Of a stretch of 64,000 nt of DNA, positions 54,894 to 59,490 are shown piece by piece. Numbering within the stretch: position 1 is the stretch's first letter; each line of letters begins with the position of its first letter. Under the pieces are notes generated by a model. It was not told the origin of the DNA, did not search any database, and saw only the letters and a list, made by a program, of their open reading frames with translations. A program made the position numbers and the translations under genes. Source of the DNA: Phyllobacterium sp. YR531 (GTDB lineage Bacteria > Pseudomonadota > Alphaproteobacteria > Rhizobiales > Rhizobiaceae); assembly GCF_000282595.1 (NCBI RefSeq), contig NZ_AKIZ01000035.1, positions 1-64,000 on the forward strand, read 5' to 3'.

Positions 54894-55316
54894 TCAATTA
54901 ATCGAAATACGTACGTCGAGATTGCTGCGGGTTGCTTCCGAGTAAGGGCAGACGATGTGGGCTGCATCGACGAGTTCGCGGGCCTGTCCAGCTTCAATGC
55001 CTGGCAATGTCACAGCAAGTGCTACGTCCAGGCCAAAGCCTTTACCGTCTTCACGCGGGCCAATTCCAACGGTGGCGGTGACGGCGGTTTCCTCGGAAAG
55101 CTTGATCTTCTTCTGCGAAGCTACAAACTTCAATGCACCGAGAAAGCAGGCGGAGTATCCCGCGCCGAATAGCTGTTCAGGATTGGTGCCCTGCGCACCG
55201 TTACCACCAAGTTCCTTTGGTGTCGAAAGCGTAACTTCCAGACGACCATCTTCACTTTTGGCACTACCGTCACGTCCGCCGGTTGCTGTCGCTTTGGTTG
55301 TATAGAGAATGCTCAT
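54894..55316 (-). CDS. ohr: Organic hydroperoxide resistance protein (Ohr)
   Basis: 140-residue thiol peroxidase of the OsmC/Ohr family; reduces organic hydroperoxides using lipoylated proteins as donors. The catalytic pair is C57 (SACFLGAL) and C123 (VCPYSEATR), with the conserved Arg and Glu in the N-terminal and central parts. ATG 55316 (AAAGGAA 7 nt upstream) is used; ATG 55322 is adjacent to the SD and less likely. It is divergent from ohrR, with a palindromic operator between. Confidence 0.94.
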   Translation of the reverse strand: MSILYTTKATATGGRDGSAKSEDGRLEVTLSTPKELGGNGAQGTNPEQLFGAGYSACFLGALKFVASQKKIKLSEETAVTATVGIGPREDGKGFGLDVALAVTLPGIEAGQARELVDAAHIVCPYSEATRSNLDVRISIN

Positions 55317-55358
55317 TTTCATTTCCTTTCGGGGTTGTGATTGTTCGATGCATATTAA

Positions 55359-55385
55359 ATTGCACGCAATTAAATTGTATGCAAT
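55359..55385. promoter_or_regulatory. Putative OhrR operator between ohr and ohrR
   Basis: An imperfect 27-bp palindrome (ATTGCACGCAATT, then AAATTGTATGCAAT) matching its reverse complement at 22 positions. It sits in the ohr/ohrR divergent gap in an AT-rich stretch, and a further half-like TGTGCAATTC follows at about 55420. Position and symmetry fit an OhrR dimer site. Confidence 0.6.
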
Positions 55386-55474
55386 AGTTATTTTCATAAA
55401 TGATGAAAAATTAAATGATGTGCAATTCAAAACACTTGGCTATTCTGTGCCAAGCTATTGAGAAGGAACAGGAA

Positions 55475-55942
55475 ATGAATATGAAAGAGAAGGGCCAGGA
55501 GTCACAGTTGAAGCTGGAGAATTTTCTTTGCTTCGCCATCTATTCCACGGCGAACGCTGTTACGCGTGCCTATCAGCCCCGCCTGACAGCGTTGAAGCTG
55601 ACCTATCCGCAATATCTGGTGATGGTGGTTTTGTGGGAAGAAGAGAACCAGACCGTTACTGCAATCGGTGACAAGCTTAGCCTGGATTCAGGTACTTTGA
55701 CACCACTGTTAAAGAGGCTTGAGGCAGCTGGGTTAATATCACGGCGGCGCGACAAGGCCGACGAGCGTCAGGTTCTGATCAACTTGACAGATGAAGGCAG
55801 GGCGATGAAAGAACGGGCTGAATCCGTGCCGATCGCAATGGGGCAGGCATTCGGTTGCACAATGGATGAGGCACGGGGCATGCGTGCCGAGCTGATCGGC
55901 TTGCGGGACAATCTTGTGGCAAGCCTCGACGAAGCAAAATAA
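55475..55942 (+). CDS. ohrR: MarR-family organic peroxide sensor OhrR
   Basis: 155-residue winged-helix repressor that releases ohr when its cysteine is oxidised. ATG 55475 with AAGGAACAGGAA upstream. The sensing Cys is C19 (ENFLCFAIYS), and C128 (GQAFGCTMDE) is placed like the resolving Cys, so this is a two-cysteine (Xanthomonas-type) OhrR. The tyrosines in AIYSTANAVTRAYQ and LTYPQYLVM that contact the oxidised Cys are present. HTH at about 60-85, wing RRRDKADERQ. Confidence 0.93.
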   Translation: MNMKEKGQESQLKLENFLCFAIYSTANAVTRAYQPRLTALKLTYPQYLVMVVLWEEENQTVTAIGDKLSLDSGTLTPLLKRLEAAGLISRRRDKADERQVLINLTDEGRAMKERAESVPIAMGQAFGCTMDEARGMRAELIGLRDNLVASLDEAK

Positions 55943-55987: not shown

Positions 55988-57022
55988 TTACGCAGCAATT
56001 TTCTTTGGCTGGATTAGTCCGCGTGCAACCAGAAGTTCAGCAATCTGCACAGTGTTCAGCGCAGCGCCCTTGCGAAGGTTATCCGAAACAATCCAGAGCG
56101 ACAGGCCATTTTCGACGGTGATGTCCTCACGGATACGCGAAATATAGGTCGCGTCTTCGCCGGCTGCCTCATAAGGCGTGATGTAGCCACCATCTTCGTG
56201 ACGGTCGATAACCAGGCAGCCCGGCGCATCGCTCAGGATTTCCCGCGCTTCTTCGGCACTCATCGGGCTTTCAAACTCGATATTCACGGCTTCCGAGTGA
56301 CCAATGAAAACAGGAACGCGTACACAGGTTGCTGTCAATTTGATCTTTGGGTCGAGCATCTTCTTGGTCTCGGCGACCATCTTCCACTCTTCCTTTGTAT
56401 ACCCGTCTTCCATGAAAACATCGATATGCGGAATAACGTTGAAGGCGATGCGCTTGGTAAACTTCTTCGCCTCCACAGGATCAGCCACGAACACCGCGCG
56501 TGATTGCTGGAACAACTCATCCATACCGTCCTTGCCAGCGCCGGAAACAGACTGGTAGGTCGCAATAACGAGGCGCTTGATGCGCGCCTTGTCGTGCAAA
56601 GGCTTCAAGGCAACCACGAGCTGTGCGGTCGAGCAATTCGGATTGGCAATGATGTTCTTCTTGCTGAACCCGGCAATCGCGTCTGGATTAACTTCCGGAA
56701 CAATCAACGGCACATTTGAATCGTAGCGCCAAGCCGACGAGTTATCGATGACAACACAGCCCTGCGCGCCGATTTTCGGCGACCATTCCTTTGAAATATT
56801 GCCACCAGCGGACATCAGGCAAATATCAGTGTCGGAAAAATCATAGGTATCGAGCGCTTTAACCTTAAGCGTACGGTCGCCATAGGAGACCTCTGTCCCC
56901 TGAGAACGGCGTGAAGCGAGCGCTACAACTTCGCTTACCGGAAAGCCGCGCTCCTCGAGTATTGTCAACATTTCGCGGCCCACATTGCCTGTGGCGCCAA
57001 CAATCGCAACCTTGAAACTCAT
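55988..57022 (-). CDS. asd: Aspartate-semialdehyde dehydrogenase
   Basis: Branch-point enzyme to lysine/diaminopimelate, threonine and methionine. 344 residues; NADP motif GATGNVGREML, nucleophile C130 (NPNCSTAQL), and the acid/base His in the FIGHSEAVN region. AGGAG precedes ATG 57022. A small ORF rich in Lys/Thr/Met codons and GC-rich competing hairpins lie just upstream (57061-57255), so attenuator-like control is a possibility. Confidence 0.96.
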   Translation of the reverse strand: MSFKVAIVGATGNVGREMLTILEERGFPVSEVVALASRRSQGTEVSYGDRTLKVKALDTYDFSDTDICLMSAGGNISKEWSPKIGAQGCVVIDNSSAWRYDSNVPLIVPEVNPDAIAGFSKKNIIANPNCSTAQLVVALKPLHDKARIKRLVIATYQSVSGAGKDGMDELFQQSRAVFVADPVEAKKFTKRIAFNVIPHIDVFMEDGYTKEEWKMVAETKKMLDPKIKLTATCVRVPVFIGHSEAVNIEFESPMSAEEAREILSDAPGCLVIDRHEDGGYITPYEAAGEDATYISRIREDITVENGLSLWIVSDNLRKGAALNTVQIAELLVARGLIQPKKIAA

Positions 57023-57060
57023 TTGTAATTCTCCTGTCCCTCTCCGCTGCTTATAACCCG

Positions 57061-57117
57061 CTGGCCACCGCGGGTCCTATCCCCCGGGCCGGACCCGGGA
57101 GGGGGCGAGCAGGCCAA
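57061..57117 (-). promoter_or_regulatory. GC-rich alternative hairpins upstream of asd
   Basis: Two mutually exclusive pairings are possible. Hairpin A is CCCGGG at 57083-57088 with CCCGGG at 57094-57099. Hairpin B is GGGTCC at 57072-57077 with GGACCC at 57091-57096. They share 57094-57096. Outer GGCC blocks (57063 and 57112) can pair too. No U run follows, so a classical terminator is not formed. Confidence 0.45.
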
Positions 57118-57123
57118 GGGAAA

Positions 57124-57255
57124 TCAGACCGTTTTGGTGGTCATTTTCGAGAGTTTTTTGGCCGAAATTTTAGTCAGAACAGCAGGCGCAGCAACGCAAC
57201 CGGCGAAAATGCCGGAGTCGTTCAATGAAAATAGCGATGTTGATTCGCTATGCAT
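57124..57255 (-). CDS. Possible leader peptide or small protein upstream of asd
   Basis: 43 codons from ATG 57255 to TGA 57124-57126, with a strong SD AAGGAG (57264-57269) 8 nt upstream, better than for most small spurious frames. The C-terminal part reads KISAKKLSKMTTKTV, with five Lys, three Thr and one Met in its last 15 residues; those are the end products of the pathway that asd feeds. The ORF stops about 100 nt before asd, just before competing hairpins. It could also be an ordinary small protein or chance. The frame is open 24 codons further upstream without a good start. Confidence 0.4.
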   Translation of the reverse strand: MHSESTSLFSLNDSGIFAGCVAAPAVLTKISAKKLSKMTTKTV

Positions 57256-57603
57256 GCGAGGCTCTCCTTGTCCGCTTGTGCTTGTACGCGGTTTCCTAAA
57301 AGAGTCAATTACATCTTTAACGAGCAAGAATATGTCGTGTTACACACAATTTTAGACATTTGATACAAGTTACGGGCTTTGCTTTCTTCAATATTTAGTC
57401 AACAATTCATTGGGGCATTGGGTTGTATGACCTTGGGGGAAAGAAATTCACAAGGACATTCACCAGCGCGCGATCTGCGACAGCAATAAGCCAAGCAATA
57501 AAGAGCGCGCGTATGTGTCAAAATGGGGGCATGGCACACGGTTTAGACTTATCATGTCTCTTTGAACTTGGGGCTTAATTGCTGTTTTCTGGGAGGAATA
57601 GAA
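57256..57603. other. Intergenic region upstream of the MHS transporter gene
   Basis: About 350 bp between the small ORF (minus) and the transporter (plus). It contains the promoters of both. I see no gene or repeat. GGAGGAAT at 57592-57599 is the transporter ribosome binding site. Confidence 0.5.
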
Positions 57604-59490
57604 ATGGCATCCACTACCGTGGCCGGCGCTACCAGCCGGGGGATGACGCGGGAAGAAAAGAAGGTGATCTTCGCTTCTTCTCTCGGCACTGTTTTTGAAT
57701 GGTATGACTTTTACCTGTACGGTTCTTTGGCTGCCTTCATCGGCGCCGCGTTCTTCAGTGAATATCCTGAAGCAACCCGCAATATCTTTGCTTTGCTTGC
57801 TTTCGCCGCCGGCTTTCTGGTCCGCCCATTTGGCGCACTGGTCTTCGGGCGTATCGGAGACCTCGTTGGCCGGAAATATACCTTCCTTGTTACAATCCTG
57901 ATTATGGGCCTTTCGACCTTTCTGGTCGGCATTCTGCCAGGGTCAGCAAGTTGGGGTATCGCAGCGCCGATCATCCTGATCGTCCTGCGTATGCTTCAGG
58001 GCCTTGCCCTTGGCGGTGAATATGGTGGCGCAGCGACTTATGTTGCTGAACATGCACCGAGCAACCGCCGTGGTTTCTATACGTCCTGGATTCAGACCAC
58101 AGCAACGCTGGGCCTGTTCCTGTCGCTCATCGTGATCCTGATCATACAGAATTCAATGACCAAGGAAGCTTTCTCCGCTTGGGGCTGGCGTATACCATTC
58201 ATCCTGTCATTCGTTCTCCTTGGAATTTCTGTCTGGATTCGGCTTTCGTTGAGTGAATCGCCTGCCTTCAAAAAGATGAAGGAAGAAGGCAAGGGCTCCA
58301 AGGCGCCGCTTTCAGAAGCATTCGGCCAGTGGAAGAATGCCAAGATCGCGTTGCTTGCTCTTTTCGGATTGACTGCAGGTCAGGCTGTTGTCTGGTATTC
58401 AGGTCAGTTCTACGCGCTGTTCTTCCTGCAGAACGTTCTCAAGGTTGACGGCCAGTCGGTTAACATCATGATTGCCATCGCACTATTGCTTGGCACGGGC
58501 TTCTTCGTCCTCTTTGGCTGGCTTTCCGACAAGATTGGCCGCAAGCCGATCATCATGGCTGGTCTGGCGCTCGCGATCATCACTTACTTCCCGCTGTTTA
58601 AAGCTCTGACATGGGCCGCCAATCCGGCCCTTGCTTCGGCACAGCAGAACGTAAGGGCAACCGTGACTGCGGCACCGGGAGATTGTAACTTCCAGTTCAA
58701 TCCGGTTGGCACTAGAAAGCCACTCACATCGTGTGATATCGCAACTGACTTCCTCGCGAAGAATTCCATTCCTTACGACATTGTCGCAACAGCCGCTGCA
58801 GGAACTGCTGCGACTGTCAAGATCGGAGCGGAGACAGTTGAATCCTACGATGCAACCACTGCTGGCGCTGAGGCAGCAGCAAAAGATGGTGCATTCAAAA
58901 AGGGCGTGAATATTGCGCTTCAGGATGGCGGTTATCCACTGGTACGCGACCCTGCAAAGGTTGCAGACAGCAAACTGGACGCCTTGGTGGCAGGAAATCC
59001 AAAATTGGCGCTTGATGCGGCTGCTATCCGCGCCGGTGAAAAGACTGTCGTTCCGGTTGACCAAGCCGTGAAGGACAAACTGATTACCGCCGAAGAAGCT
59101 GCCGGTGCCACAGAGGTTACGGTCTACTCCGTACCCAAAGCTGGTGCGTTCAAGATGGTAGCCGATCCGGCAGCGGTCAATTGGCCAATGGTCGTCGGTA
59201 TTCTGTTTATTCTCGTTATCTATGTGACGATGGTTTACGGACCGATTGCAGCAATATTGGTTGAAATGTTCCCGACTCGCATCCGCTACACCGGCATGTC
59301 TTTGCCATACCATATCGGTAACGGCTGGTTCGGTGGCCTGCTCCCTGCAACGGTGTTCGCGATGAGCGCTGCCAAGGGCGATATTTACTACGGGCTTTGG
59401 TATCCGATCGTGATTGCTGCGATGACATTGATCATCGGGCTGCTCTTCGTTCGCGATACGAAAGATACAGATCTGGACGAAGTTAAATAA
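57604..59490 (+). CDS. MHS-family MFS transporter with a large periplasmic insert
   Basis: 628-residue metabolite:H+ symporter-type permease (the ProP/KgtP/ShiA family is normally about 430-450). The 5' signature VFEWYDFYLYG and the cytoplasmic loops GRIGDLVGRKYTF and WLSDKIGRKPIIM are normal. After TM9 (about 314-334) an extra ~185 residues (about 340-526) separate it from TM10 (WPMVVGILFILVIYVTMVYG). The insert is Ala-rich and polar, carries C361 and C377, and should lie in the periplasm. The substrate is unknown; the family moves small acids and betaines. A strong terminator follows. Confidence 0.88.
   Translation: MASTTVAGATSRGMTREEKKVIFASSLGTVFEWYDFYLYGSLAAFIGAAFFSEYPEATRNIFALLAFAAGFLVRPFGALVFGRIGDLVGRKYTFLVTILIMGLSTFLVGILPGSASWGIAAPIILIVLRMLQGLALGGEYGGAATYVAEHAPSNRRGFYTSWIQTTATLGLFLSLIVILIIQNSMTKEAFSAWGWRIPFILSFVLLGISVWIRLSLSESPAFKKMKEEGKGSKAPLSEAFGQWKNAKIALLALFGLTAGQAVVWYSGQFYALFFLQNVLKVDGQSVNIMIAIALLLGTGFFVLFGWLSDKIGRKPIIMAGLALAIITYFPLFKALTWAANPALASAQQNVRATVTAAPGDCNFQFNPVGTRKPLTSCDIATDFLAKNSIPYDIVATAAAGTAATVKIGAETVESYDATTAGAEAAAKDGAFKKGVNIALQDGGYPLVRDPAKVADSKLDALVAGNPKLALDAAAIRAGEKTVVPVDQAVKDKLITAEEAAGATEVTVYSVPKAGAFKMVADPAAVNWPMVVGILFILVIYVTMVYGPIAAILVEMFPTRIRYTGMSLPYHIGNGWFGGLLPATVFAMSAAKGDIYYGLWYPIVIAAMTLIIGLLFVRDTKDTDLDEVK

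Follow-up and report, generated by a model that had tools for sequence, protein, structure and literature searches.

In the classical attenuators (thr, trp, his, ilv), a short open reading frame (ORF) rich in codons for the end product is followed by mutually exclusive RNA helices. In the translational attenuators of the ermC type, a ribosome on the leader shifts helices on which the accessibility of the main start depends, and at tnaC Rho is kept from loading by a ribosome that is stalled where the leader ends.

Among published mechanisms, the one found to come nearest to the element described below is that of the LEU element, which lies upstream of leuA in actinobacteria (Seliverstov et al. 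2005, PMC1262725). The available part of that paper gives it a leader peptide with end-product codons and a candidate pseudoknot alternating with a hairpin, in which the Shine-Dalgarno sequence is involved; it describes no terminator, and it cites mutations of the leucine codons as misfitting classical attenuation. Nearer in phylogeny is uORFC-8-2, upstream of cysS in Rhodobacterales, which concerns cysteine and for which transcriptional read-through is proposed in the part of the report available (PMC8632094). Then there is SEP5, a small ORF whose translation in S. meliloti was demonstrated by Hadjeras et al. 2023 (PMC10117765). The paragraph devoted to it places six Thr and three Lys codons near its 3' end and the ORF itself in the 5' UTR of a gene that it names "aspartate dehydrogenase", proposes it as a possible leader peptide, and calls it conserved only in Sinorhizobium. 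Beyond that paragraph, the accessible parts of the open-access matches listed describe no leader attenuator of asd, and give no account of the leaders as a wider family, of their preference for AAA or of the RNA switch considered here. PMC2965389 mentions none of asd, aspartate, semialdehyde, Brucella, Sinorhizobium or Agrobacterium, and the accessible parts of PMC1273637 and PMC4117421 do not describe an asd leader attenuator.

The locus at issue lies in a stretch of 64,000 nucleotides from Phyllobacterium sp. YR531, the whole of which is called the window. It carries asd (Table 1), whose product makes the precursor shared by lysine, threonine, methionine, isoleucine and diaminopimelate. I propose that asd is probably attenuated at its start site according to the supply of lysine and threonine, through the ribosome that translates a leader ORF upstream, and that the step controlled is most likely the initiation of translation.

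Table 1. Features of the asd leader region in the window.
Feature	Position	Strand	Remarks
Promoter-like pair upstream of the leader ORF	TTGACT 57308-57303, TACAAG 57286-57281 (span 57281..57308)	-	
Leader Shine-Dalgarno, AAGGAG	57264..57269	-	read in window and genus alignment
Leader ORF, 43 codons plus UGA	57124..57255	-	kept in 20/20 genus genomes; ATG start; peptide MHSESTSLFSLNDSGIFAGCVAAPAVLTKISAKKLSKMTTKTV
Conserved Lys/Thr end, last 12 sense codons	57127..57162	-	GCC AAA AAA CTC TCG AAA ATG ACC ACC AAA ACG GTC
Segment A, pyrimidine-rich, begins directly 3' of the leader stop, core UUUCCCUUGGCC	57105..57123	-	A:D pairing
Segment C, CGCCCCCUCCCGGGUCC, partner D or F	57091..57107	-	pairing tests
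Segment D, GGCCCGGGGGA, partner A or C	57080..57090	-	pairing tests
Hairpin E, GGACCCGC..GCGGGUUA	57054..57077	-	variable hairpin
Segment F, GCAGCGGAGAGGGACAGGAG, purine-rich, runs into asd Shine-Dalgarno	57031..57050	-	pairing tests
asd Shine-Dalgarno, AGGAG	57035-57031	-	
asd, aspartate-semialdehyde dehydrogenase	55988..57022	-	TIGR01296, NF011456 matches

An earlier note, made from the letters of the window, had described the leader ORF with its strong Shine-Dalgarno sequence, its stop 101 nt before the asd ATG (57022), and GC-rich pairings behind it that share bases. The coordinates and the AAGGAG are confirmed, the two family matches confirm the identity of asd, and the pairings are there. 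The 5' leader of asd contains a short ORF that looks translated and has its own ribosome binding site. No protein family in Pfam or NCBIfam matched the peptide. A search with Rfam, lysine riboswitch included, gave no match at gathering score in the window, and in 10 relatives the five matches at E <= 5 were all far under that score. Upstream of the ORF, TTGACTC and TACAAGC are invariant across the 20 genus sequences, and TTGAC occurs at -260..-120 from the leader stop in 71 of the 80 named genomes introduced below, against 3/80 after shuffling. A sigma-70 consensus scan of the window lists no promoter at the leader, so the case for this promoter-like site is one of conservation. As for the flanks, a long ORF divergent from the leader (57562-59490, plus strand; 642 aa from the first TTG) resembles by eye a major facilitator transporter with a long hydrophilic middle, and downstream of asd (54894-55942), also judged by eye, a gene like those for organic hydroperoxide resistance (minus strand) lies beside one for a MarR-type regulator (plus strand).

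What is conserved in the peptide is its end, the last 7-12 codons; the rest differs between genera. Eighty named genomes, picked by the closeness of their asd to that of the window, were compared; they include Brucella/Ochrobactrum, Mesorhizobium, Aminobacter, Agrobacterium, Rhizobium, Sinorhizobium, Shinella, Hoeflea, Roseibium and others. An end with at least six Lys or Thr codons precedes asd in 80/80, and its conserved form is K-T-T-T-K-T-V-stop: Lys at -7 in 71, Thr at -6 in 76, at -5 in 78 and at -4 in 62, Lys at -3 in 71, Thr at -2 in 76, Val at -1 in 77, and UGA as the stop in 79. Codons for two end products of the pathway, lysine and threonine, are thus both concentrated in the ORF and conserved. 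The earlier note had called the end rich in Lys, Thr and Met. Lys and Thr are borne out by conservation; Met is not, for the Met that the window has at -6 is Thr in 76 and Lys in 4 of the 80, and methionine is rejected as a sensed amino acid.

The lysine codons are constrained beyond the amino acid that they specify. Every Lys codon among the last 12 of the window, which run into a TGA stop, is AAA. Across the named genomes the tails have 219 AAA against 16 AAG (235 codons), while their asd genes have 58 against 1849 (1907 codons), and the fraction of AAA in the tail exceeds that of asd itself in 80/80. The ratio of AAA to AAG is 216:53 in tails from the family at large, compared with 31:683 in 30 family asd genes, and 61:21 in tails from the order's other families; more distant relatives thus show a weaker preference. 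It is not a general taste for codons ending in A, because ACA is rare among the Thr codons of the named tails (7/430). Those Thr codons switch between ACC and ACG, which places the constraint on the decoded amino acid.

Such codon choice bears on the simplest alternative, that the ORF encodes a small protein functional by itself and merely happens to precede asd. In its favour, S. meliloti does translate such an ORF, to judge by the part of PMC10117765 that reports it. It is very hard to credit all the same, for conservation is confined to the last 7-12 codons, and the bias between AAA and AAG would be invisible in the protein. Two Sinorhizobium leaders (L296, L307) end SKTTAKTTTKTV and, like SEP5 as that paragraph describes it, have six Thr and three Lys codons, so that SEP5 is, by these counts, very probably the S. 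meliloti copy of the asd leader. The published account, in its accessible part, includes no RNA structure, codon bias or wider family, unlike the element here.

The family of leaders is in fact much wider than the window sequence alone could reveal. A leader was counted where an ORF ending 65-175 nt before asd had at least six Lys or Thr among its last 12 codons. All 20 genus members have one (shuffled upstream fraction 0.0025; reverse complements 0/20), Phyllobacterium calauticae, P. myrsinacearum and P. trifolii among them, and so do 93 of 113 family genomes, which are mostly of different genera (shuffled 0.0000; reverse complements 0/113). It is absent from several family members with small genomes (L094, L128, L134, L139). 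In other families of the order the count is 41/80 (shuffled 0.0006; reverse complements 0/80), and therefore about half of the genomes read there lack the leader by this measure. Outside the order, within the class, a Lys/Thr tail precedes asd in only 3 of 37 readable upstreams. Loci in which no asd start was found by pattern had been excluded before counting (3/116 in the family, 4/89 in the order search, 3/40 in the class), and the order count of 80 further leaves out four loci of the same family and one short upstream. Two loci of the class outside the order, L336 and L347, have Lys/Thr-rich tails before asd, TPTTKTKTGITV and APTTTKKTKTVA; the leader may therefore predate the order or have arisen more than once.

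Several searches speak to how specific the arrangement is. Within the window, the leader is the sole ORF with at least seven Lys or Thr in its last 12 codons. The exact codon pattern for KTTTKTV-stop occurs in 33 of 121 family genomes, once in each and at asd in all 33 (the window's own genome, whose leader ends MTTKTV, falls outside these), and the reversed control pattern gave no matches in the 121. A covariance model built on the leader end and the intergenic RNA (R1) matches 89 of the 121. At E <= 0.0056 it finds 84 genomes, 83 of them at the start of asd and one (G062) a draft without an asd match; 14 weaker matches include two at asd. R1 carries only 11 pairs and behaves mostly as a sequence profile, because RNAalifold gave a poor consensus for the family alignment, a result that I ascribe to the alternative helices and the variable hairpin E. 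Upstream of homoserine dehydrogenase in the genus, no such leader was found within 300 nt in any of 17 readable loci; the remaining 3 of 20 were excluded, their starts not being found by pattern.

Behind the stop come, in order, pyrimidine strands A and C, purine strand D, the variable hairpin E and purine strand F, which lies directly upstream of the asd Shine-Dalgarno sequence or overlaps it. In 88 aligned sequences (78 family loci of other genera and 10 from the genus), A:D and C:D overlap on D by a mean of about 11 nt, and C:D and C:F overlap on C by about as much, and so D can serve A or C, and C can serve D or F, one at a time. The pairings were tested by partner swap, in which the duplex energy of each strand with its own partner is compared with that obtained with partners from other genomes. 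With 79 sequences (the 88 less nine of the ten genus members), z is -7.7 for A:D, -7.4 for C:D and -4.5 for C:F, and +0.5 for A:F. These scores are to be read with the knowledge that relatedness can inflate them, since the leader end scores -4.7 against C and -3.2 against A.

Tests less exposed to relatedness rank the helices. Of 149 sequences 145 could be segmented, and representatives were drawn from these (Table 1 gives the segments in the window). Thirty-six representatives under 65% identity give p=0.0014 for A:D, p<0.0002 for both C:D and C:F, and p=0.34 for A:F; eighteen give 0.0032, 0.0000, 0.0068 and 0.41 in the same order, and six, which are too few, 0.03, 0.03, 0.35 and 0.24. Two pairs outside the model score as well with the 36, D:F at p<0.0002 and A:C at p=0.0046. 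My reading of these, which is unproven, is that D:F reflects hairpin E, whose arms lie inside the broad limits set for D and F, that A:C reflects segment edges that adjoin or overlap, and that relatedness feeds both. Permutation inside clusters leaves A:D and C:D at p<0.0005, C:F at p=0.07 and A:F at p=0.51, and between 47 clusters the median z is -4.1 for A:D, -7.5 for C:D, -5.1 for C:F and -1.3 for A:F. A sign test on sister pairs from the 145 sequences (rows with segment E, which was empty in some sequences, went unused) favours C:D by 35 to 9 (p=0.0001); A:D at 22 to 18 and C:F at 25 to 17 are not significant, and A:C scores 18 to 2. That test is low in power, because sisters hardly differ.

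Compensation can also be followed by eye. In L116, GCUUGU in A faces ACAAGC in D; in L115 and L129, GGCU in A faces AGCC in D and CUUCC in C faces GGAAG in F. L042 has CGCUUCCC in C, CCGGGAAG in D and GGGAAGCG in F, and L133 has UUGCUCUC in C with GAGAGCAA in F. Comparison of sequences therefore supports three mutually exclusive helices, A:D, C:D and C:F, of which C:D is the best backed and the other two are less secure. A:F is rejected as a covarying helix, no swap, cluster or sister test having given it significant covariation. The earlier note had envisaged two hairpins competing for shared bases. The comparison supports exclusive structures, but the helices that covary are the three just named; pairing of C with the second hairpin, E, shows no covariation (C:E z -0.6 in the 79 sequences). 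That note had also held that an attenuator should be recognizable in relatives by conserved end codons and conserved pairing. Both are conserved, and the comparison supports its idea that asd has a leader-peptide attenuator, in a form that would respond to Lys and Thr through mutually exclusive RNA structures and would probably act on translation.

If hairpin E were an intrinsic terminator and the upstream segments its antiterminator, asd would be controlled by transcription attenuation, as the thr and trp operons are. In 5 of 20 genus members (L017-L021), U5-U6 follows E directly, and E would be a plausible intrinsic terminator in that sub-lineage; there is besides a weak A:E signal (z -1.7, p=0.046). 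In the window species, however, no U run stands behind the hairpins, as the earlier note had observed, and a terminator scan of the window finds nothing after the leader, its one hit (57251-57231) lying inside the leader ORF and being at chance level. Among leader-bearing sequences, five or more consecutive U occur on the way from the leader to the asd start region in only 6/80 named genomes, 2/93 of the family and 1/42 of the rest of the order. A conserved intrinsic terminator is rejected on these grounds. An antiterminator formed by C with E is likewise rejected, for want of covariation. I consider transcription attenuation unlikely as the general mechanism, and do not class the element with thr and trp, because the terminator was tested and found not to be conserved. 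The rarity of U5+ runs makes control at the initiation of translation the best guess. Outside the order, one locus (L359) combines a tail TATKTAGKTTGV, a stop 143 nt before the asd start, and then a strong hairpin with a U-rich tract, UUUUUGUUUUU. It counts in favour of transcription attenuation of asd, and may itself be a true transcription attenuator in another alphaproteobacterial lineage.

Termination by Rho is another conceivable mechanism. C-rich RNA after the leader stop would load Rho, and a ribosome at the leader end would block it, as at tnaC. The stretch directly after the stop is pyrimidine-rich, and the stop is UGA in nearly all named genomes (79/80), as this idea would have it. 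The stretch is kept complementary to D and F, though, for which the loading of Rho gives no reason, and Rho-dependent attenuation is accordingly given still less credence than an intrinsic terminator.

The reading that I prefer, control at the start site of asd, can be stated as a sequence of steps. When lysine or threonine is short, lysyl- or threonyl-tRNA would be in short supply and ribosomes would slow at the AAA/ACN run; I infer this from the conservation of the codons and the position of asd in its pathway. Where the ribosome stands would decide whether strand A is available. With C:D formed, F would be free, and with A:D formed, C would be free for F. The strands follow one another as A, C, D and F, so that A:D interleaves with C:F; formed together, the two helices would make a pseudoknot. 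In starvation, a ribosome held at the leader end would keep A out, C would take the nearby D, F would stay open, and asd would be translated. In plenty the ribosome would leave, both purine strands would be taken, and the asd start site would be closed, whether by A:D with C:F (interleaved and pseudoknot-like) or by A:F with C:D. The predicted C:F helix has a median span from about -28 to -16 relative to the asd ATG, beside the Shine-Dalgarno sequence; for L092, L106 and L107, folding predicts that C pairs with an AGAGAGC immediately ahead of the asd start.

Which way the switch works is a weaker matter than its parts. I lean slightly towards the direction given, because on physiological grounds the start site should open in starvation, and consider its mirror image nearly as probable. 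With the usual footprint, a ribosome halted at -3 or -7 would leave most of A uncovered, which would favour the opposite assignment of ON and OFF. Folded alone, A through D form A:D in 80 of 88 sequences. Masking the 10-16 nt after the stop lowers the predicted cost of opening the asd start from 7.4 to 6.8-6.1 kcal/mol by nested folding, a small gain, and A or C occupies F in 79/88 minima unmasked and still in 69/88 masked. These four points make the direction the weak point of the model.

The same explanation has a branch with opposite geometry, like that of trp. A stall upstream would free A, and A:D would be the ON state; a ribosome at the stop would mask A, C:D would form, and A:F would close the start. 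Several observations suit it: A begins directly after the stop, A through D alone prefer A:D, and C:D with A:F is the commonest nested minimum (34/88). Yet it needs A:F, which shows no significant covariation in the tests run, while C:F, covering nearly the same part of F, covaries in most of them. I regard this branch as less likely than not.

Returning to start-site control by Lys and Thr supply, the element belongs among the leader-peptide attenuators, as a new variant. It shares with the classical ones the ORF with end-product codons and the mutually exclusive helices, and differs from them in having no conserved intrinsic terminator, in helices that aim at the start site of asd, and in a strand order that interleaves A:D with C:F. 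In attenuators of the ermC type the signal is an antibiotic, not the supply of aminoacyl-tRNA, and the strand order is nested. The LEU element, going by the available part of its description, differs in that the run of leucine codons itself pairs with the Shine-Dalgarno sequence, and it belongs to another gene, amino acid and phylum (PMC1262725); in the asd element, the leader end does not covary with F (z +0.8, 79 sequences). From the part of its report available, uORFC-8-2 is likewise an alphaproteobacterial upstream ORF that has codons for the relevant amino acid and is accompanied by a conserved RNA motif, but it concerns cysteine and cysS, and the mechanism proposed is read-through of transcription (PMC8632094).

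If the proposal is true, then a leader-peptide switch governs the asd branch point in much of Hyphomicrobiales, soil and plant bacteria such as rhizobia, agrobacteria, Brucella/Ochrobactrum and mesorhizobia, and would probably let the cell tune its production of Lys and Thr. It would also suggest a likely role for a small ORF that S. meliloti translates and that had been taken to be specific to its genus, and the AAA-biased lysine codons would offer a clean test of codon-specific sensing of starvation. The fullest version of the model is more speculative, and I put it forward tentatively: an order-wide attenuator free of a terminator, in which AAA/ACN codons at the end of the leader would read the supply of Lys and Thr, a C:D hairpin would swap with a pseudoknot of A:D and C:F that closes the asd start, and the use of AAA would make the switch respond selectively to how far a single lysine tRNA is charged.

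The family also has leaders of a second type, which stop closer to asd (about 76-90 nt upstream of it) and whose ends, for instance TKTTIII, IKTTII or IKTSIS, have Ile beside Lys and Thr (L036, L063, L083, L100, L112, L118, L125 and similar loci). Isoleucine is made from threonine, and the composition of these ends suggests that the supply of isoleucine may be read too. The same chain of pairings can be recognized by eye behind them in other letters, as in L112.
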